Below the pieces are notes generated by a model that worked only from the letters and a program-made list of their open reading frames with translations, did no database searches and was not told where the DNA came from. The position numbers and the translations under genes are program-made. From contig SHZF01000048.1 in assembly GCA_009692425.1 (NCBI GenBank), positions 1 to 33,829 on the forward strand: a stretch of DNA of 33,829 bases, written 5' to 3'. Positions 6,122-23,640 of the stretch are shown in pieces. This stretch comes from Myxococcales bacterium. Its GTDB lineage: Bacteria; Myxococcota_A; UBA9042. The stretch's first letter is position 1. Every line of letters starts with the position of its first letter.

Positions 6122-6835
6122 GTGAAGCTGTCGGTTGTCATCCCCTGCTACAACGAGCGTGCGACGATTCGCGATATCGTGGCGCGCGTGCTGGAGCAGC
6201 CCTATGAGTTCGAACTCATCATCGTCGATGACGGCTCGACCGACGGGACCCGCGACCTGTTGCCGAGTCTCGAGCGCGACCACGAATGCGTGCGCGTCCT
6301 GCTGCAGCCACAGAACTGCGGCAAGGGTGCGGCGCTGCGGCGCGGATTCGAGGTGGCCACGGGCGACATCGTGATCGTGCAAGACGCTGACCTCGAGTAC
6401 GACCCGGCGGAGTACGCGCGCCTCATCCAGCCCATCCTCGACGGCAATGCCGACGTGGTGTACGGCTCGCGTTTCGCCGGCACGACGCGGCGCGTGCTGT
6501 ATTTCTGGCACTCGGTCGGCAACCAGATGCTGACGATGCTGTCGAACATGGCCACCGACCTGAACCTGACCGACATGGAGACCTGCTACAAGGTGTTCCG
6601 GCGCGAGGTCATCCAGTCCGTGCGGCTTGAAGAGGATCGCTTTGGCATCGAACCTGAGATCACGGCGAAACTCGCCGCAGTCCACGGCCTGCGCATCTAT
6701 GAAGTGCCGATCGGGTACAACGGGCGCACGTACGACGAAGGCAAGAAGATTGGGCTGAAGGATGCGTTTCGTGCGGTTTATGTCATCGGCAAGTATGCGA
6801 TGCTGACCCGTGTCCGGCGCCCCACTGGCCGATAA
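6122..6835 (+). CDS. Family 2 glycosyltransferase, dolichol-phosphate-mannose-synthase-like
   Basis: A 237-residue GT-A fold enzyme that transfers a sugar from a nucleotide sugar, probably to a polyprenyl phosphate lipid at the inner membrane face. Motifs run in order: [10 protein letters not shown] (residues 4-13), [11 protein letters not shown] with D36-D37, [12 protein letters not shown] (65-76), the metal-binding DAD at 88-90, and VVYGSRF. The later [11 protein letters not shown] and [12 protein letters not shown] stretches match the DPM1/GtrB-type subgroup. No transmembrane segments follow the catalytic domain, unlike GtrB, so it resembles the soluble DPM1-like form. The start is GTG with GGAGG six bases upstream. 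The gene appears to stand alone, with its own promoter candidate at 6042. Confidence 0.88.
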
Positions 6836-7157
6836 GGTATCGTGCGGTGGCGACCGGCCTGGGCGATTGCCGCAGCGTACCCACCTGCACCATCGAAACG
6901 AATCAGGGTGCGGTCACGCAACGTAGGAGACGAACAGCACCTCGGCGAGGATGCGTTGGCGCCCGCGCCGGCTGCGAGGATTGCGGGCGGTGGAGAAAAG
7001 CTTGAAAAGTCGATGATATCCGCTCATGACCCGGCACTTTCTTTTCGCCGGATCACGGCCGCACGGGATGTGCCTGATCGCACAACGTATTATCTGTCAA
7101 TCACTTTCGCTAGTTTGCGGTTCTTGCGGTCGCCCTGTGTGCGAGCGCGACCCACAG
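6836..7157 (+). other. Intergenic region without a recognisable gene
   Basis: This stretch between the glycosyltransferase and the rplC promoter has no frame with convincing coding character. It contains an AT-richer patch at about 6995-7125, which could hold additional regulatory sites, but I see no RNA gene, repeat or clear second promoter. Confidence 0.5.
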
Positions 7158-7185
7158 TTGACACTCGCAGCCTTGCCGCTACACT
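7158..7185 (+). promoter_or_regulatory. Strong sigma-70-type promoter for rplC
   Basis: A perfect TTGACA at 7158-7163 is followed, after 16 bases, by TACACT at 7180-7185. This is the best promoter match I found in the window. Transcription would start near 7192 and leave an untranslated leader of about 165 bases before the rplC ATG. Such a leader is long enough for translational control, but I see no known ribosomal-protein leader structure in it. Confidence 0.6.
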
Positions 7186-7357
7186 CCGCGCCCCTTCTGC
7201 CTCCCGCAGGCAAGGGCCGCCGACGCTTGGAGCCAACACGCCCAAGCCTCTCGCGCGGATTAGCGGGCGCCGCGGCAAAGGCCGACCCAGCGCGCCCCGA
7301 CCCACCGCGCTTCGCCCCGCCGCTTGCGGGCTCCGACCAGCGCAGGAGAAGCCAGCC

Positions 7358-8005
7358 ATGCACAAGGGACTTTTCGGCCGCAAGATCGGCATGACTCAGA
7401 CGTTCGACTCCGAAGGCAACAAGGTTGCCGTCACGGTGCTCGAAGTCGGCCCCTGCCCCGTCGTCCGCGTGAAGACGACGAACGGCAAGGACGGCTACGA
7501 CGCGATCGTCATCGGCTTCGGCGCGCGCAAGCCCAAACACACGACCAAGCCCTACGGCGGGCAATTCAAGGCGGCCGGCATCGAGCCGACCCTGCACCTG
7601 CGCGAAATGCGGGTCACGGCCAACGACGTGGACGGCGTCGAAGCGGGGCTCGTGCTCGATGCGGCGGCCTTCAGCGTCGGCCAGAAGGTCGATGTGGTCG
7701 CGCGCACGAAGGGCCGCGGTTTCACCGGCGTGATCAAGCGCCACAACTTCCACATGCCCAAGGCGAGCCACGGTACGCACGAGGTGTTCCGCCACGGCGG
7801 CTCGCTCGGCACGCGCACGACGCCCGGTCGCGTGTTCCTCGGCAAGAAGATGGCGGGCCGCTACGGTTTCGAGCGCGTCACGGCGCAGAACTTGACGGTG
7901 ACGCAGGTCGATGTCACGCAGAACCTCGTCGTGGTCAGGGGCTCCGTGCCCGGGCCGAACGGCGCGGTGGTTTGGATTCAAGAAGCGGTGCGGACGGTCA
8001 AGTAG
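7358..8005 (+). CDS. rplC: 50S ribosomal protein L3 (uL3)
   Basis: A 215-residue L3, an early assembly protein of the large subunit that binds the 3' end of 23S rRNA and reaches toward the peptidyl transferase centre. The start GLFGRKIGMTQTF, the central KGRGFTGVIKRHNF, and GGSLGTRTTPGRVFLGKKMAG are diagnostic. Both glutamines of the E. coli GQNQTPG segment, which includes the site methylated by PrmB, are threonine here, as in other bacteria lacking that site. The ATG at 7358 has AGGAGA eight bases upstream; the frame is open further upstream, but that part lacks L3 character. L3 is normally the second gene of the S10 operon, yet neither rpsJ upstream nor rplD downstream is present. The next genes are two unknowns and hemC. 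Confidence 0.96.
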   Translation: MHKGLFGRKIGMTQTFDSEGNKVAVTVLEVGPCPVVRVKTTNGKDGYDAIVIGFGARKPKHTTKPYGGQFKAAGIEPTLHLREMRVTANDVDGVEAGLVLDAAAFSVGQKVDVVARTKGRGFTGVIKRHNFHMPKASHGTHEVFRHGGSLGTRTTPGRVFLGKKMAGRYGFERVTAQNLTVTQVDVTQNLVVVRGSVPGPNGAVVWIQEAVRTVK

Positions 8006-8026
8006 CCGCGGCACAGGCGGCGCGAG

Positions 8027-8461
8027 ATGACCAGCCACCCCTTGATTCGTGTCCGCTCCGGCACGGGGCAGCTGTACGCCGACAACCGGCGCCGGTTGCC
8101 CCGCAGCGCAGTGCGACGCATGCCGCGCGGGACCTCGGCATTTCCGCGCGGCGACAACCAGACCCGCCCGTGGCTGGCCGAGACGGCCGACGAGCCGGTG
8201 CCGCTGGCGCGCGTGACGCTGCCCGAAATCGTCTCCGCCGCGCGCCAGGCCGCCCACCTGCTGATCGACCTGTTGCATGATGTCGGCAGCTACGTGCAGC
8301 GCTGTCGGCGCCGACGCGAGCCGATGCCGCGCGAAATCGTCGACGACATGGGCGATCTGCTCGACTGGTATCTGGTGTTGCACGCAGTCGGGGTGGTCGA
8401 CAGCCGCGGCGTGTGGCTGGCTGACAGCTGGTGGAATCGAACCGAACGCGGGGGGTCCTGA
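8027..8461 (+). CDS. Hypothetical protein, 144 residues
   Basis: I do not recognise this family. The first 45 residues are basic and probably disordered (many Arg, Pro and Ser). Residues about 60-140 are helical, with a hydrophobic LPEIVSAARQAAHLLIDLL and a DDMGDLLDWYLVLHAVGVVD segment. There is no signal peptide or membrane span. It lies 21 bp after rplC and its stop codon TGA directly precedes the GTG start of the next gene, so the two are probably co-translated. The tight packing with rplC and the hem genes argues that it is real. Confidence 0.6.
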   Translation: MTSHPLIRVRSGTGQLYADNRRRLPRSAVRRMPRGTSAFPRGDNQTRPWLAETADEPVPLARVTLPEIVSAARQAAHLLIDLLHDVGSYVQRCRRRREPMPREIVDDMGDLLDWYLVLHAVGVVDSRGVWLADSWWNRTERGGS

Positions 8462-9559
8462 GTGCGTGTTGTTTTTCCGGCGGCGATGGACACCTTTGCG
8501 TGCGTCGATCCCGATTGTGCGTGCCGGTTGGCCTTGCGCGCTGCGCCCCGTGCCGTGACCGCCGCCAAGCCCAAGCTGCCTGCACGCGACGCGGTCGCTG
8601 CCGTAGTGGATGGTGCGGCGTGGATTGCGGGCAGCGCAGGCGAGGCAGGGGTCGCCGGTGCCGCAGAGCATGGATATGGTGATTTTCCGATCGGCGCCGT
8701 CGGGACCCCACACCAGGTGGAACTGACGTTTGACACGCTGTGTCCCGAAGTGCGGCGACTGCTGGCCGCCGTCGAAGAGCCGACCGGCATCGCGGGGTCC
8801 GACGGCGGGTGGCGCCAGGGCCTGCGGGTGTTCCAGCCCGACCACAAGAATGCCCAGGTACGCCTGACGCCGCGCAAGTCGGTGCGGTGGGTCGAGTTCG
8901 AGGCGCTGCGCGAGGCGCTGCTCGACGTGGCGGCAGAGCCGACGGAAACGCTGCTGGCCCAGTTGACGCGGGTGGCCGTCGCCGTCGATGCGGCCGTGAC
9001 CGACCAGGTGCTGTCGACCACCGTCGCCCCGCTCACGCCGCGAACTTTTGTCGCGTTTCGCGCGTTCGTCGAGACCCGGGCGCACGCAGCAGGGGCAGAG
9101 GCGCTCGCCGAATTCGCCGGCAAGACGTTGCCGCTGTGGGGAGCCGACGTGGGCCTCAAGCCCGGCCACCTGCCGACGCTGCTCGATGCGCTCCACGGCG
9201 ATTGGCGGGCGCAGTTGCGGGCGCGCGTGGTGCCCCATGAGCGCGAACTCCTGGCGCCGCTCGACGCGTGGCTCGGAATGCGGCTTTTCGCGATCCCGAT
9301 CGACCGCGACCAGTCGCTCGTGCGCGGCCACACCGAGTTGCTGGAGGGGTTCGCCGTCGGCCTGCGCTACCTCGCCGCGCTGGGCGAAACGCTGGATTGC
9401 GATGCGGACGCGCTGCTGGCCGTGACCGCGCTCGCGCTCGGCGAGCACTTCGTGTTGGACACCGCGCTGCCGTTGCCCGCGTTCGAGGTGCCGCGCGATG
9501 CCCACGACCGCGGTCCGCGCATGGCCGACCTGGACCTGACGTTGGAGAGCCTGTGCTGA
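8462..9559 (+). CDS. Hypothetical protein, 365 residues, N-terminal Cys cluster
   Basis: I do not recognise this protein. It opens with FACVDPDCACRLALR, giving three cysteines in the pattern C-x4-C-x-C that could bind metal. The rest has a mixed composition with long helices: residues about 150-220, a TLPLWGADVGLKPGHLPTLLDAL stretch, and a hydrophobic helical C-terminus ending in DLDLTLESLC. No signal peptide or transmembrane segment is evident. The GTG at 8462 directly follows the previous stop; an ATG at 8486 is the alternative and would still keep the cysteines. Its TGA overlaps the hemC ATG (TGATG), so it is translationally coupled to tetrapyrrole synthesis. A role in haem metabolism is possible but only by position. 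Confidence 0.65.
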   Translation: MRVVFPAAMDTFACVDPDCACRLALRAAPRAVTAAKPKLPARDAVAAVVDGAAWIAGSAGEAGVAGAAEHGYGDFPIGAVGTPHQVELTFDTLCPEVRRLLAAVEEPTGIAGSDGGWRQGLRVFQPDHKNAQVRLTPRKSVRWVEFEALREALLDVAAEPTETLLAQLTRVAVAVDAAVTDQVLSTTVAPLTPRTFVAFRAFVETRAHAAGAEALAEFAGKTLPLWGADVGLKPGHLPTLLDALHGDWRAQLRARVVPHERELLAPLDAWLGMRLFAIPIDRDQSLVRGHTELLEGFAVGLRYLAALGETLDCDADALLAVTALALGEHFVLDTALPLPAFEVPRDAHDRGPRMADLDLTLESLC

Positions 9560-14812: not shown

Positions 14813-14823
<11 letters not shown>

Positions 14824-16357
14824 GCGCTTTCACCGCATCTTGATGACGGTCGCCATGGCCTGCGCGTGCGCATGTGGCGGCGGGTCTGGGCCGACGCACA
14901 CGGGAGCCGACGCCGCCTCCGCCGCGGCAACCGATGCGCTCGACGCAGTGGCCCAAGGCCGCGCGGACACCGCTGCGCCGCCGGACTCCGGGGCAACCGA
15001 TGCTGTTGGCGCGGGCGGCCTGGATGCAGACGCCATTCCAGGCAACGACAGCGGACCAGCAGGCAACGACGGGCTCGCTACCCCCGACGCAGGCACGCCA
15101 TCACTGGACGCGGCACCCCAGGTCGCGGCCGATGCGAGCCCGGACACACCCGCCAAGGCCGACGCCGCGTGCGCGCCGGGTCCGTGCGACGATGGCGACC
15201 CGTGTACGGTCGGCGCGGCTTGCACGGGTGGAACCTGCAAGGGCGGCGCGCCGCTCTACTGGCAGGCTGTCGTCGGCGGCCCCAAGGACGACGTCGCCCA
15301 CGCCGTCGTGGCCCTCGGCAATGACGTGGTCGTCGCCGGGCGCACGGAATCGGCGGGTGCGGGCGGCCGCGACGGCTGGCTGGCGCGTCTCGGGCCCGGT
15401 GGCGCCGTGCAGTGGCAGGTGACGGCGGGAGGCGCCAAGGCGGACGAAGTGCTGGCGTTGGTGCCGGACGGGACGGGCTTCGTTGCGGCGGGCTCGACCC
15501 AATCGGCCGGCAAGGGTGCGCGCGATGCGTGGCTCGTCCACGTCGACGCCGACGGCAAGGTGGCGAGCGAGGCGACGCTGGGCGGCACCGCCAACGAAGA
15601 AGTGTACGGTCTGGCCGCGCTCGATGGCGGGTTCGTGTTGGCGGGCAACCAGGAACTGGCGGTGGGCGGCGCTGTGCGCATGTGGGTGGCGCGCACCGGA
15701 CCCGGCGGCAAGGAGGTGTGGTCGCACACGCTCGGCAGTTCGGAACTCGACACGGCGTGGGACGTCGCCGCGCTCCCCGACGGCACGCTCCTCGTGGTCG
15801 GCGAGACGTGGACGGGCGGCAACCAGCACCTGTGGCTCGTGCGGCTCGGCGGCGATGGCAAGGAGTTGTGGCAAAAGGTCCTGCATTCCGATGGCGTCGA
15901 CACGGGCTGGGCCGTGCGGCCGGCGGCGCAGGCGGCGGGGCTGGCGGCCGGCTTTGCCATCGCTGGCTACCGCGAGTTGCCCGGTCCGGGCGGCAGACAG
16001 ATGTGGGCCGCTCGCCTCGATGGCGAAGGCCAGATGCTGTGGGAGCAGTTGTACGGCACGCCGGGTGCCGACGAGGCGAAGGGCCTTGCCGTCGGTGCGG
16101 ACGGCGGCGTGGTGCTGGCGGGCGCCTGGAACGGCAAGGGTGCGACCTCGCAGTTCGGGGTGGTGCGGACGGACGCCGCCGGCAAGGCACTCGGCACTCA
16201 CGTGTGGGGTGGTGGTGGCGCGGAAATGGCGCACGCGGTGGCGGCGGCTCCGGGCGGCTGGGCGGTGGCGGGGCAGATCGGCAATGCGGGCGCGGCGTTG
16301 GACGCGTGGGTGTTTCGGCTGACCACGACCGGAACGACCGCGTGCGGCGCGAAATAG
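14813..16357 (+). CDS. Large lipoprotein with Cys-rich linker and repeated propeller-like blades
   Basis: A 514-residue exported protein. The short signal peptide ends in a Cys-Ala run (MACACACGGG), with lipidation possible at C17, C19 or C21. Residues about 25-120 are Ala/Asp/Gly/Pro-rich spacer. A CAPGPCDDGDPCT segment with more cysteines (about 120-144) is of a kind frequent in myxobacterial secreted proteins. The remainder has about seven to eight units of about 50 residues with the pattern GG-x-x-x-DE-x-x-x-L, G-[FG]-[VF]-[LV]-AG-x-T, then DAWL-x-[RH]-[LV]-x-x-[DG]-G. This pattern is common in beta-propeller or delta-60 repeat-like lipoproteins. It overlaps the regulator by 11 bp, so its expression is probably tied to the two-component system. 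No enzyme motif is visible. Confidence 0.85.
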
Positions 16358-17004: not shown

Positions 17005-18510
<1,506 letters not shown>

Positions 18511-18845: not shown

Positions 18846-21800
18846 CTACTTCACCTTCCCCGCACCCACCACATACGCCGGCACGCTGCTCGCCGACTGC
18901 ACTTCCAACGCCAGCGTCGTCCCCTTGGGGATGCTCGTGGCAATCAGGCTCAAGTCCAGTTCTGGCAACGGAAAACTCGCCAGCGTGCCACCCAGGGATT
19001 GCGTCAACTGACCCGCCACGACCGGCAGCAGCAATTCGATGAACGCGGTCGTCGCCTCGGTGGACGCCTTGCCTGAGATGAGCACCGTGTCGACGTCGGT
19101 CTTTACCAGGTGCGGCTTGGCGAGGTCCAACGCGATTTCCGGCCCCGTCGCCATCTGCACCACCTTGACGCCAACCTTGGCGGCGATCGCGGCAAAGGCC
19201 TTCACGGTCACGGACACGCCGCCCAGCTTCATCGTCACGTCGATGGACAGATCGCCGATTTGCATCTCCGGCTTGCCGTCGGGCGTACAGTCGTGCACGA
19301 GCGGCGGCAGCAGCAGGTGGGTGGTGGCCTTGAGGTCGGTGACGCCATACTTGCCGAGGTCCAACTGGCCCTGCAAAAGCGCGGGACTGATGGGGATGTC
19401 GAGCGCGCCGGTCTGCCACATCGACATCAGCAGTTCGCCGACCACGTCGAGGTGGATGGCCATCTCGACGGGCGTCGTCTTCTTGAGCACCGCAGCCGGG
19501 TCCGCGCCGGCCGCCAGACAGCCGTTGCGGGCAAAGGAGCCTTTCGGGTTCTCCGGCACCGTCTTCTTGCTCGCCACCGCCGTCTTGAGCCCGAGCCGCC
19601 CGCCGCCCGGAGTCGTGCCCACCTTGCCCTGAAACACGATGGACTGCAGCACCGACGCCAACTTGATGGTCGAAGGCTTGCCGCCGAGCAGGCCCGGCAC
19701 GTTGAACGACGTGTTGAGCGCGAACGCCTGCAGGGCATTGGCGAGCGGCCCGGCGAGCGAAGTGCCGAGCGCCTTTGTGAACTGCGTTTCGAGCAGGTTC
19801 GTGATCTGCTTGTTGAACAGGTCGAGCAGCCAGTTGACGAGGAATCCCCACCAGTTGTCGACGCTGACGTCGAGGCCGACGAGATTTACGTTGACGCCCT
19901 CGATCGCGACCGTGACCTTGCCGGCCGCATCGACGGTGGGCTTGATCGTGCCCGTGATCGTGACGCTTTTCGCCGTGACCGTGGCGTCGGCCGAGACGTT
20001 GAAGATGCCGAGGTTCGTCGTGTTGAGCGCGACCTTCGAGGTGACGTTCTTGATCGTGCCGTCGAGGTAGAGGCCACCGTTGACGGCCGTCAGCTTCACC
20101 GACGGATAGCCGCCGTTGAAGCTGGGGTCGCCGTATTTGAACGAGTTCACCGTCGCGGTGCCCTTCGCGACGCTCATCTCGAACGGAAAACTGGCGCCCA
20201 CCACCGCAGACAGGTCGATGTTCTTGAGCACGATCTCGACGACCGTGGCGAGGTCCTTCGGCTTGGCGTGGTTGCGCGTGCCCGAGTCGATCGCCGCCTG
20301 ACCCAGCCATGTGTCGAGGCCGTGGGAAACTGCGCCCGCCATCGGGTTCAAATCGCTGATCACGTGCCATTGTTCAGCCGCGTAGAACGACTGCACGGTC
20401 TCCTTCTTGTTGCCCCACTCGTCTTCGGCCTCGATCGCGATGGTGTTGAGCCCAAGTACGACCGGCAGGTTCGCCTTGAGGTCGAGTCCCGCGCCAGGCG
20501 CCACGCTATTGCCGTTGACCTTGACCTTCGCGACCTTGGAGAGTTCGTCGAGCGTGCTGAACGTGATCGTGATGTTGGGGGCGTAGTCGAGCGTCGCGCC
20601 GCGCTTGGGAAACGACACGCTGACCAGCGGCCCGTTCGAGTCGACCTTGAACTTCAGCGTCGCCTTGACGCCCGCGGCACCCTTGGCCGTGGCCGTCAGC
20701 GTGTAGTTGCCGTCTTCGCCGCAGGTGATCTGTTGGTTGACCTTGTCGAGCGCCACGCCGATGGCCGGCGCGATGACGAGGTCGACCGGCACGTCGGCGA
20801 TCGGATTGCCGAAAACGTCTTCGCCCGAGGCCAGCACGTCGATGGGCTGCGAGGTCTTGTAATTCGGCTGGCTGGGGTCGAGCGCGAGTTTGATCTTGAC
20901 GGGCGCCCCGGGCAGGACCAACACCTTGGCGGGCGCCGACTCGGGCAGGTCCTTGTGGATGCATTGCACCTCGTGGCTGCCCACCTTCGTGCACTGCAGC
21001 GTCGCCTTGGCGGGGTCGGACTTGCAATCCGCTGGCGCCTGCAGCGTCCAACCCTGCAACGGCGGCAGGATGGAGTTGCCAAACTTGTCCGCAGCCGCAC
21101 ACGCCCACGTCACGTTGGCGCCCGCCGTGGCCTGGGCCGGCACAGTCACCTTGGAGTACGCGGGCTTGCCCGGCTTTACCGTGAGTGTCGCTGGCGTGGA
21201 GTCTGCCACACCGGCCACGTCGCATTGGACCTTGTGCGGGCCCGCTTTCTGGCCGCTGATCGACTTGCCGTTGACGGTGACGCCCCCGTCCCCGCTGACA
21301 CTCGCTTCGATGGCAGCGGGAGGTGTCGCGCCGGGCTGGGGCGCCGCGGCAAAGGTTGTCGGGTTGCCGTGGGCGTCTTCGGCGCTGCACGTGACCGTCG
21401 CGCTGTCCTCGCCGGCGACGATCGCCTCGGGTTTGACCGCCGCCACGACCTTGGCCGCCGCACCGGGCAGGAACATGGCGTGAGCGGGTGTCGCCTCCAG
21501 CTTTGCGAGGTCCGGTGCGCCCGCGCCCGCCGGCTTGCATGTGACGGGGTGGCCGCCCGCTTTCGTCGTCGTCACGCTGAGCGGGGCGCTGCCCACGGCC
21601 AACGGCGCGGGCGCCACCAGCGTCCAGTCGGTCCACGCGACCGGATTGCCGCCGCCGTCTTCGAGGGCGCACGCCACCGCCGCCTGCCCGCCGACGACGC
21701 CCGCCGCGGCCGCCGTGACCACCTTCGTGGGTCCACCGGTGATCACCTGGAACTTGGCCGGCGTCGCGACCGCCTTGGTGTGCTCCTTCGCGCGACACAC

Positions 21801-22487
21801 GACCTCCGCACTGCCGGGCTTGCGGCCCACGACGGAGCCGCCCGTCGCCGAACTCGTCGCGTCGGCGCGGTCGGTTGGCGCGACTTCGAGGACCCAAGTG
21901 AGCTTGGCGACTGCGTTGCCGAATGCGTCCGAGCCCATGCACGTCACGGTGGCCGACGTTCCGGCCGGCACCTCGGTGGGCGCGATGCTTGCCGACGTCT
22001 TGACTGCTGCACCGGCCCGCACCTGCAACTGCGGAGGCTGGGCATCGACGGCATTCTGACCCGTGTGGCGGCACGCGATGGCGTAGGAGCCCACCTTTGT
22101 CCCGGTCACGCTGAACGTGGCGGCAGACGCGGCGGCCTGCGCGTCGACTCCGCCGCTCGGGGTGGCGAAGACCTCGAAGCCCTCGGCGGGGCCGATGCCA
22201 CCCTCCCACGAGCAGGTCGCCGTCGTCGGTTGGCCCGCGTCGACGATGGCTACGGCGAGTTTCGTGACGAGGCGGCGGGCGCCGGCGCCGCCCAGCCCGC
22301 TCGTGCCGCCGCCACCGGTCACCCCCTGCGTGCCGGCGACGGCAGAACCGGCTGCGCTGTCGTCGGAGCACCCGGCACCGAACGCAACGCAGACCACGGC
22401 CGAGCAAACCCACGCGGCTGGCGCGGACAGGCAACGGCGCTCAAGCACCGCGGCGGGCAAGGACGTAGAAAAAAAGGTCGGTCGCAT
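18846..22487 (-). CDS. Large lipoprotein: Ig-like repeats plus BPI/LBP-like (TULIP) double lipid-binding region
   Basis: A 1213-residue exported protein with lipobox FGAGC (C40). Residues about 75-615 form six Ig-like domains of about 90 residues. Five have a Cys pair, each with a first strand like ATVTC, a D-x-x-GN turn and a last strand like GSHEVQC. A seventh, glucodextranase-B-like domain follows at 620-707 (KVNGN, LGLNTIAIEAEDEWGN). Residues about 735-930 are long alternating beta-strands ending in an amphipathic helix (LLDLFNKQITNLLETQ). Residues about 1005-1210 resemble the BPI/LBP/CETP C-terminal module: GELLMSMWQTGALDI, then ATTHLLLPPLV, VKAFAAI, and LLLPVVAGQLTQ with FPLPEL. TULIP folds hold lipids in a tubular groove, so lipid binding or transport is inferred. 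The ATG at 22487 has GGAGA four bases before it. It lies 61 bp after the zinc-ribbon membrane protein gene. Confidence 0.75.
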   Translation of the reverse strand: MRPTFFSTSLPAAVLERRCLSAPAAWVCSAVVCVAFGAGCSDDSAAGSAVAGTQGVTGGGGTSGLGGAGARRLVTKLAVAIVDAGQPTTATCSWEGGIGPAEGFEVFATPSGGVDAQAAASAATFSVTGTKVGSYAIACRHTGQNAVDAQPPQLQVRAGAAVKTSASIAPTEVPAGTSATVTCMGSDAFGNAVAKLTWVLEVAPTDRADATSSATGGSVVGRKPGSAEVVCRAKEHTKAVATPAKFQVITGGPTKVVTAAAAGVVGGQAAVACALEDGGGNPVAWTDWTLVAPAPLAVGSAPLSVTTTKAGGHPVTCKPAGAGAPDLAKLEATPAHAMFLPGAAAKVVAAVKPEAIVAGEDSATVTCSAEDAHGNPTTFAAAPQPGATPPAAIEASVSGDGGVTVNGKSISGQKAGPHKVQCDVAGVADSTPATLTVKPGKPAYSKVTVPAQATAGANVTWACAAADKFGNSILPPLQGWTLQAPADCKSDPAKATLQCTKVGSHEVQCIHKDLPESAPAKVLVLPGAPVKIKLALDPSQPNYKTSQPIDVLASGEDVFGNPIADVPVDLVIAPAIGVALDKVNQQITCGEDGNYTLTATAKGAAGVKATLKFKVDSNGPLVSVSFPKRGATLDYAPNITITFSTLDELSKVAKVKVNGNSVAPGAGLDLKANLPVVLGLNTIAIEAEDEWGNKKETVQSFYAAEQWHVISDLNPMAGAVSHGLDTWLGQAAIDSGTRNHAKPKDLATVVEIVLKNIDLSAVVGASFPFEMSVAKGTATVNSFKYGDPSFNGGYPSVKLTAVNGGLYLDGTIKNVTSKVALNTTNLGIFNVSADATVTAKSVTITGTIKPTVDAAGKVTVAIEGVNVNLVGLDVSVDNWWGFLVNWLLDLFNKQITNLLETQFTKALGTSLAGPLANALQAFALNTSFNVPGLLGGKPSTIKLASVLQSIVFQGKVGTTPGGGRLGLKTAVASKKTVPENPKGSFARNGCLAAGADPAAVLKKTTPVEMAIHLDVVGELLMSMWQTGALDIPISPALLQGQLDLGKYGVTDLKATTHLLLPPLVHDCTPDGKPEMQIGDLSIDVTMKLGGVSVTVKAFAAIAAKVGVKVVQMATGPEIALDLAKPHLVKTDVDTVLISGKASTEATTAFIELLLPVVAGQLTQSLGGTLASFPLPELDLSLIATSIPKGTTLALEVQSASSVPAYVVGAGKVK

Positions 22488-22548: not shown

Positions 22549-23640
22549 CTACGATCCAAGGGGTTGCGGCGCCCCGGCGACAAGGCGCTCGACATCGGCG
22601 ACCGCGTCCAGTTCTGCGCGCAGGCGCTGGGCTTCGTCGGCGGCGGCGCGCAGGGCGGCGCGCAGGCCGAGGCGCCCACCGGTGTCGAGCAGGATGTCGA
22701 TGTCTGCCGTCGCATCGGCGGGGAGGGTGTCGGTGCCGAACGCCTCGCGCACGCCGGGGGCTTCGGCCGTCAGCGCGGCAGCCTGCCGCACCAACAGGGC
22801 CTGGCGCAGCTGTCCGCACGCGCCGAGCAGGCGGCCAAGCCGATCCAGCGCCAGTTGACCAGCGGGTGTCGCGGCGGGCGGGGCTTCGCGCCACCGGGCG
22901 ACCAGCGCGCGACCGTTTGCAATGGCGGCATCGAGCGCGTGCAGGTGGCGCTGGCAGGTGGCCTCGTCGAAGCGACGCCAACCCCGGTGCAGCGGCTGCA
23001 GCCGGTTCTGCCACTCCAAAACGCGCAATTCGAACGCCTCGACGACGCAGCGGTCCCGACGATGCAGGGTCGCCTCTTCGGCTTGTTGCAGGGCATGCAG
23101 CGCGGGCGACCGGTGGTGCGGTGCCACCTCGGTCGCGATGCGGTGGCGCAGGGTGTCGATGCGGCGCAGCGCCTCCTCCAATTCCGCGCGCCTCGCTTCA
23201 CAGCGGTCCCGGCGGGGCCGCACCGCCGCCGTGACGCGATGGTCGAACGCGTGGCGCAGCCGCTGTGACAGCCAGCCGCGGCCGAGCGCAAAGCCCCCCA
23301 AGGGCCCCACCAGCCACAGGGGCCACCATCCGGTCGATACGGCCGCCAACAAGCCCGCACCGAGTCCGGTCGCCGCGCCGACTCCGAGCCAGAACTCCTG
23401 GTTGTCGCGCGCGCGCCCCAACAGACGCGATGCAGGCGCCACGATGCCGCAGACCGGACACGCCTCGGCCCGCGCCAGGACCCACGCGCCACAGTCGCGG
23501 CAGTTTCGCGTGGTTTCGGCCAGCGGTGACTCCCTTCGACGCGGGCAGCCACAGTGGCCCGGCGCGTCAGGCCCGATCGTGCGGACTGGGGCATCCGAAG
23601 GCAAGGGCTTCTTGCCCCGGCTGGTGGCGCGGGTGAGCAT
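22549..23640 (-). CDS. Zinc-ribbon membrane protein with coiled-coil C-terminus
   Basis: A 363-residue protein of unknown function. A zinc ribbon lies at residues 47-64 (CRDCGAW, then ACPVCG). Two transmembrane segments probably lie at about 83-120 (FWLGVGAATGLGAGLLAAV and WWPLWLVGPLGGFALG). The last 240 residues are Arg/Leu/Glu/Ala-rich and helical, likely coiled coil. The start is unsure: the ATG at 23640 lacks a ribosome site and lies only 17 bp from the divergent kinase start. An AAGGGAG at about 23535 suggests that translation might begin just before the zinc ribbon at a non-ATG codon. It is followed by the TULIP lipoprotein on the same strand, so the two may work together. Both this protein and the divergent kinase begin with zinc ribbons. 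Confidence 0.72.
   Translation of the reverse strand: MLTRATSRGKKPLPSDAPVRTIGPDAPGHCGCPRRRESPLAETTRNCRDCGAWVLARAEACPVCGIVAPASRLLGRARDNQEFWLGVGAATGLGAGLLAAVSTGWWPLWLVGPLGGFALGRGWLSQRLRHAFDHRVTAAVRPRRDRCEARRAELEEALRRIDTLRHRIATEVAPHHRSPALHALQQAEEATLHRRDRCVVEAFELRVLEWQNRLQPLHRGWRRFDEATCQRHLHALDAAIANGRALVARWREAPPAATPAGQLALDRLGRLLGACGQLRQALLVRQAAALTAEAPGVREAFGTDTLPADATADIDILLDTGGRLGLRAALRAAADEAQRLRAELDAVADVERLVAGAPQPLGS

Follow-up and report, generated by a model that had tools for sequence, protein, structure and literature searches.

Among the bacterial TULIP proteins, Levine (2019) listed YceB, P47/OrfX2, DUF4403, DUF2140 and DUF2993 and described their homology to eukaryotic TULIPs as low (PMC6791001). 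The best link between a bacterial and a eukaryotic family reported there is the one of DUF4403 to BPI, with an HHsearch probability of 63% (PMC6791001). Here we analyze a gene of a Myxococcales bacterium that encodes a predicted lipoprotein of 1213 residues, in which a long stalk precedes a C-terminal head resembling the eukaryotic proteins LBP, BPI and CETP. The gene lies on the minus strand of a stretch of 33,829 nucleotides (contig SHZF01000048.1 of assembly GCA_009692425.1), which we refer to as the window and to which all positions without a locus or contig label refer. A first-pass annotation of the bare sequence had placed two TULIP modules in BPI order in the C-terminal part of the protein. 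Its residue numbering is correct (residue 735 corresponds to base 20285 on the minus strand), and the proposed modules and their order are borne out by a Pfam match on the N-terminal module and by BPI, LBP and CETP as the top folds across both.

Sequence relationship of the N-terminal module

The N-terminal TULIP module comprises residues ~735–921 (19725..20285, minus strand). When the whole protein was scanned, the Pfam family LBP_BPI_CETP (PF01273) matched residues 814–907 with an E-value of 1.9e-6 and 28.1 bits, just below the Pfam cut-off of 28.8 bits. When residues 729–1213 were scanned alone, the match scored above the cut-off with 31.1 bits (E 2.3e-7). The same family was matched by 43 of the 47 relatives (best E 2.2e-11) and was found above cut-off in 17 genomes; 14 control genomes scanned for PF01273 gave no match. 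The other families matched among the relatives were mostly Grp7_allergen, JHBP, DUF4403 and LmeA, which we take to be TULIP families, and the remainder were single weak matches.

Comparison with all PDB sequences gave the same picture. A search with the single sequence returned one match only, the lipopolysaccharide-binding protein LBP (E 0.012). With a profile of the family, LBP was found at 7.4e-16 and BPI at 1.8e-10, and no other match was significant. A profile of the N-terminal module alone detected LBP (2.1e-14), BPI (2.6e-10) and CETP (0.0099). Judged by these sequence matches, the N-terminal module belongs to the LBP/BPI/CETP branch.

Predicted fold and the C-terminal module

A structure prediction followed by a fold search had been suggested in the first-pass annotation, and we carried this out for residues 705–1213. 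The AlphaFold2 model of the two modules was built on an alignment of 19 sequences comprising the window and related loci, with closer relatives left out. It reached a predicted local distance difference test score (pLDDT) of 76.6 and a predicted template modelling score (pTM) of 0.73. The best solved structures were BPI (3.5e-18), LBP (8.1e-18) and CETP (2.2e-17), aligned over ~530 columns covering both modules, and the top five PDB folds were all BPI, LBP or CETP with E-values of 6e-17 to 4e-18. Next came OrfX3/P47, SPLUNC1 and, weakly, YceB. A search of a viral fold library yielded no match at E ≤ 0.001.

The C-terminal module (residues ~922–1213; 18849..19724, minus strand) was also modelled alone (pLDDT 79.8), and its fold matches were CETP (1.0e-4), BPI (1.1e-4), BPIFA1 and YceB. 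From the models we consider it very probable that both modules have the TULIP fold. The Pfam check that had been proposed along with the fold search turned out as expected for LBP_BPI_CETP, as given above, and not for LBP_BPI_CETP_C (PF02886), which was above cut-off neither in this protein nor in any of the 53 genomes searched. Weak matches of PF02886 below the cut-off do occur at the right place, the best with an E-value of 0.0147 and another, in a divergent relative, with 0.035. Because a profile of the C-terminal module alone matched neither BPI nor LBP among the PDB sequences, we do not claim homology of this module on sequence. In the match of the full profile to LBP, the GAL and FPLP steps are collinear with the C-terminal module of LBP, each segment being non-significant alone. 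The assignment of the C-terminal module rests on the predicted fold and on this collinearity.

Four BPI-like motifs had been cited for the C-terminal module, and all of them are found in the 1213-residue protein: WQTGALDIPI, LKATTHLLLPPL with the LPP step, VTVKAFA, and a helix followed by ASFPLP. The most conserved columns in alignments of 39–47 relatives include the Gly of GALDI, the LPP step and the Pro of FPLP, and by these alignments the motifs are features of the family and not chance. Furthermore, two cysteines of this module are invariant among the 47 relatives, Cys990 (19518..19520, minus strand) and Cys1067 (19287..19289, minus strand), and could form a disulfide with each other. There is no Cys at residues 735–921, in the N-terminal module.

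Gene and protein architecture

The gene is intact (18846..22487, minus strand; 1213 codons and a stop), as judged from its open frame and coding composition, with a third-position GC of 0.88. An upstream in-frame ATG at 22715 represents an alternative start that would add 76 residues. At the protein start we read a predicted lipoprotein signal peptide (22368..22487, minus strand), a hydrophobic segment with the lipobox-like VAFGAGC, the Cys40 of which (22368–22370, minus strand) would be the lipidated anchor. Most full-length relatives start in a similar way. Residues ~72–700 (20388..22274, minus strand) form a putative immunoglobulin (Ig)-like stalk, for which weak Pfam matches to Invasin_D3, Glucodextran_B and Big_7 argue together with Cys pairs at regular spacing and six GN motifs. 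In every full-length relative examined the double TULIP is C-terminal and is preceded by a long stretch.

Cargo and proposed mechanism

The first-pass annotation had proposed a role in handling lipid or lipopolysaccharide (LPS). The lipid part of this proposal agrees with the TULIP/BPI-type assignment, and by analogy with that family we think it probable that the protein handles lipid. The part concerning LPS of the own envelope is not supported. A BamA-type match in 45 of 45 related genomes (G000–G044) indicates diderm cells. LpxC is the committed enzyme of lipid A synthesis. It was absent in our search from 44 of these 45 genomes, including the source genome, and was found in one; the same search was positive in E. 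coli, Caulobacter, Synechococcus and Bacteroides. The class is apparently a lipid A-free diderm lineage. In addition, the charge of the aligned tip of the N-terminal module is +4 in BPI and in LBP, +2 in the 1213-residue protein and 0 as the family median, and the median net charge of the module in the family is -7. The basic tip of BPI and LBP is, as far as the aligned residues tell, not conserved in the Myxococcota family. Handling of own LPS was rejected as unlikely on the LpxC search, and the non-basic tip points the same way. Sterol as a general cargo was rejected as well, squalene/oxidosqualene cyclase being unmatched in the source genome and above cut-off in 4 of 45 relatives. In some Myxococcota, e.g. 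Sorangium, sphingolipids take over the role of LPS. Since the lineage is diderm and without detectable LpxC, an envelope lipid other than LPS is the most likely cargo, with foreign lipid as the main rival.

We propose that the N-terminal lipid of the predicted lipoprotein would anchor it in a membrane of the envelope, and that the long Ig-like stalk would bear a head whose two TULIP modules are arranged as in BPI. If the modules work like those of BPI and CETP, an apolar pocket in each of them would accommodate the acyl chains of a single lipid. Through the stalk the head may be able to contact another membrane or the space around the cell, where it would deliver or collect lipid, and the cargo would be a non-LPS lipid of the own envelope, i.e. 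a phospholipid, a sphingolipid or similar. That nearly all of the nearest genomes have the family, and in several paralogues, fits such an envelope function. We give this whole mechanism, a tethered two-module BPI-type carrier of non-LPS envelope lipids, about an even chance of being correct. Weighing against it are the moderate confidence of the two-module model (pLDDT ~77), the lack of a conserved lipid-transport partner adjoining the window gene, and the fact that LpxC is the sole lipid A marker tested.

The head could instead face outwards and bind foreign lipid, either LPS or phospholipid of other bacteria, in a predation or feeding role nearer to that of animal BPI and LBP. In both sequence and fold the LPS-binding proteins LBP and BPI match best, predators are well known from this phylum (PMC9919749), and LPS binding would be harmless to a carrier whose own LPS seems to be absent. 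However, neither the tip (+2 here and 0 in the family, in contrast to +4 in BPI and LBP) nor the negative net charge of the N-terminal module in the family speaks for it, and the sequence gives no sign of a head outside the cell. We regard this explanation as rather unlikely. A similarly low probability is given to the possibility that the TULIP head has ceased to carry lipid and acts as a scaffold with a structural or adhesive role, so that the stalk and the partners described below (Cys-rich lipoprotein, thioredoxin, deiminase) would define a surface role. Subfamilies indeed retain the head and vary stalk and partner, and Ig-like and Cys-rich stalks are frequent in surface proteins, but every subfamily that matches the profile over its full length retains both modules, and two-module BPI-type TULIPs of known function carry lipid (PMC5507252). 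That structure prediction gave a spurious TULIP assignment and the region is another beta-rich domain, as the moderate pLDDT of 77 and the large root-mean-square deviation of 8 Å to BPI might suggest, is highly improbable, as structure-free sequence profiles give the same family and the C-terminal module modelled without the N-terminal one still matches TULIPs.

Distribution, subfamilies and neighboring genes

The family was found in 52 of the 53 nearest genomes, usually with several copies per genome; the source genome has four (contigs C97, C136, C55 and C132). The distribution search covered a sample of Myxococcota genomes, 194 of 379 of which contained a family match at 1e-5. Near full-length members with E-values of ~1e-80 to 1e-110 occur in several families outside the class of the source genome. 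Named records with the family are mostly Myxococcota, Myxococcales or Deltaproteobacteria metagenome-assembled genomes, with few other labels. Locus L064 is identical to contig C75 of G040, a genome from the same class as the window, and this connects the window with Myxococcota. A search of the genome contigs with the single protein gave no match. The pattern scan was made with a closer subset of relatives, the wide alignment being too diverse. Taken from sequence, the BPI-type head is found across Myxococcota in what is predicted to be a membrane-anchored protein family.

A maximum-likelihood tree of 54 heads contains, besides other groups, the window clade with 8 rows and a second clade with 9, each supported at 100/100, and gene context tracks this tree. 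Genes of the window clade are followed by a membrane thioredoxin/AhpC-TSA-like gene in four genomes. These small genes were seen after the window-clade relatives at loci L098, L099, L100 and L102. The window gene itself has no thioredoxin, deiminase or Cys-rich partner; the gene convergent with it encodes an IMP dehydrogenase (17011–18510). The thioredoxin-like partner is lost, or was never present, at this copy. Elsewhere in the window, after a response regulator gene, positions 14813–16357 (plus strand) encode a lipoprotein-like protein of 514 residues with a Cys-rich unit and propeller-like repeats, for which there was no Pfam match.

Second-clade genes are followed by a peptidylarginine deiminase gene, matched by PF03068 in the source genome and three others examined and by PF04371 in one more. 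The deiminases next to this clade match either PF03068 with E-values of ~1e-60 to 1e-69 or the Porphyromonas-type PF04371. The arrangement of second-clade paralogues directly upstream of deiminase genes was seen on contig C136 of the source genome (L095:3402–5519 and 6572–9379) and also at L103, L107, L108 and L109. In some genomes a HEAT-repeat-like gene lies between the second-clade paralogue and the deiminase. The BPI-like lipoprotein and protein citrullination enzymes are a conserved pairing.

A further subfamily is phylum-wide, and at 22 loci the next gene encodes a lipoprotein that combines Cys-rich repeats with a C-terminal domain that is conserved, stop and start often overlapping. Examples of this conserved operon partner are L096:8694–10733, L064:12771–14927, L085:367–2280, L087:3594–5525 and L089:4291–6267. 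In the partner the Cys repeats are of the Dicty_CTDC type, and the C-terminal domain, which is undescribed, ends with NDIDxDGDGxxDAKSIGLK. The number of Cys per 420 stalk residues is 43–49 in the phylum-wide subfamily versus 4–9 in the others, whose stalks are Ig-like. Stalks are thus swapped among subfamilies under the same TULIP head (relatives in L003–L062).

Evolutionary meaning

Plain profile hidden Markov models tie the bacterial family to LBP and BPI with E-values down to 7e-16, and the two-module layout is retained. With this link the origin of the BPI/CETP family becomes testable by a tree, and the Myxococcota family may help to trace the origin of animal lipid carriers. It is conceivable, though on balance doubtful, that an old, phylum-wide Myxococcota double-TULIP family shares a direct ancestor with eukaryotic BPI/LBP/CETP, whether it is their sister among bacteria, their source or linked to them by a transfer that happened very early, and that its BPI scaffold serves the tethered transport of lipids in a lipid A-free outer membrane. 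That eukaryotes obtained sterol genes from Myxococcota has already been under discussion (PMC12004948). A BPI-type protein in diderms without detectable LpxC also sets the scaffold apart from LPS, the ligand for which it is best known. In a literature search on bacterial PF01273 proteins, the coverage of which left out most subscription journals, no paper was found.

Comparison with known TULIP proteins

LmeA (PF11209) and JHBP/Takeout (PF06585) are single-module proteins. Both belong to TULIP families that are weakly matched by few members of the present family, LmeA by 1 and JHBP/Takeout by 3 of the 47 relatives. P47/OrfX proteins are bacterial TULIP folds and gave fold matches from 7e-11, but they showed no sequence match and their fold scores trail that of BPI by six or more orders of magnitude. 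YceB/DUF1439 is likewise a bacterial TULIP lipoprotein and matches the Myxococcota C-terminal module in fold. It is single-module (PMC5507252), whereas the Myxococcota head has two modules, and no sequence match to DUF1439 was found in the Pfam scans.

DUF4403 (PF14356) shares with the present family that it is bacterial and has two modules in a predicted BPI-like layout (PMC6791001). In contrast, it has no long stalk, its open frames being ~470–510 residues long. PF14356 did not match the 1213-residue protein and matched 2 of 47 relatives (best E 0.0057), and a DUF4403 profile searched against the PDB sequences gave no match, although with four sequences only it is a weak control. In the source genome DUF4403 is a separate gene (C44:5453–6565, minus strand), so two independent two-module TULIP families coexist there.

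The closest described proteins are the eukaryotic LBP, BPI, CETP and PLTP (PF01273 and PF02886). The N-terminal module of BPI has a conserved disulfide, which is without counterpart in the Myxococcota protein because its N-terminal module contains no Cys. Furthermore, the C-terminal module is unrecognised by PF02886, and it carries an invariant Cys pair; the tip is not basic. While LBP, BPI and CETP are secreted, the Myxococcota protein is predicted to be lipid-anchored with a stalk of 700 residues. Because of the C-terminal module and the disulfide it is not a plain member of the LBP/BPI/CETP family. With these proteins it nevertheless has in common two TULIP modules in the same order, an extracytoplasmic location as predicted here, an N-terminal module related in sequence (7e-16 to LBP), and the best fold match across both modules.
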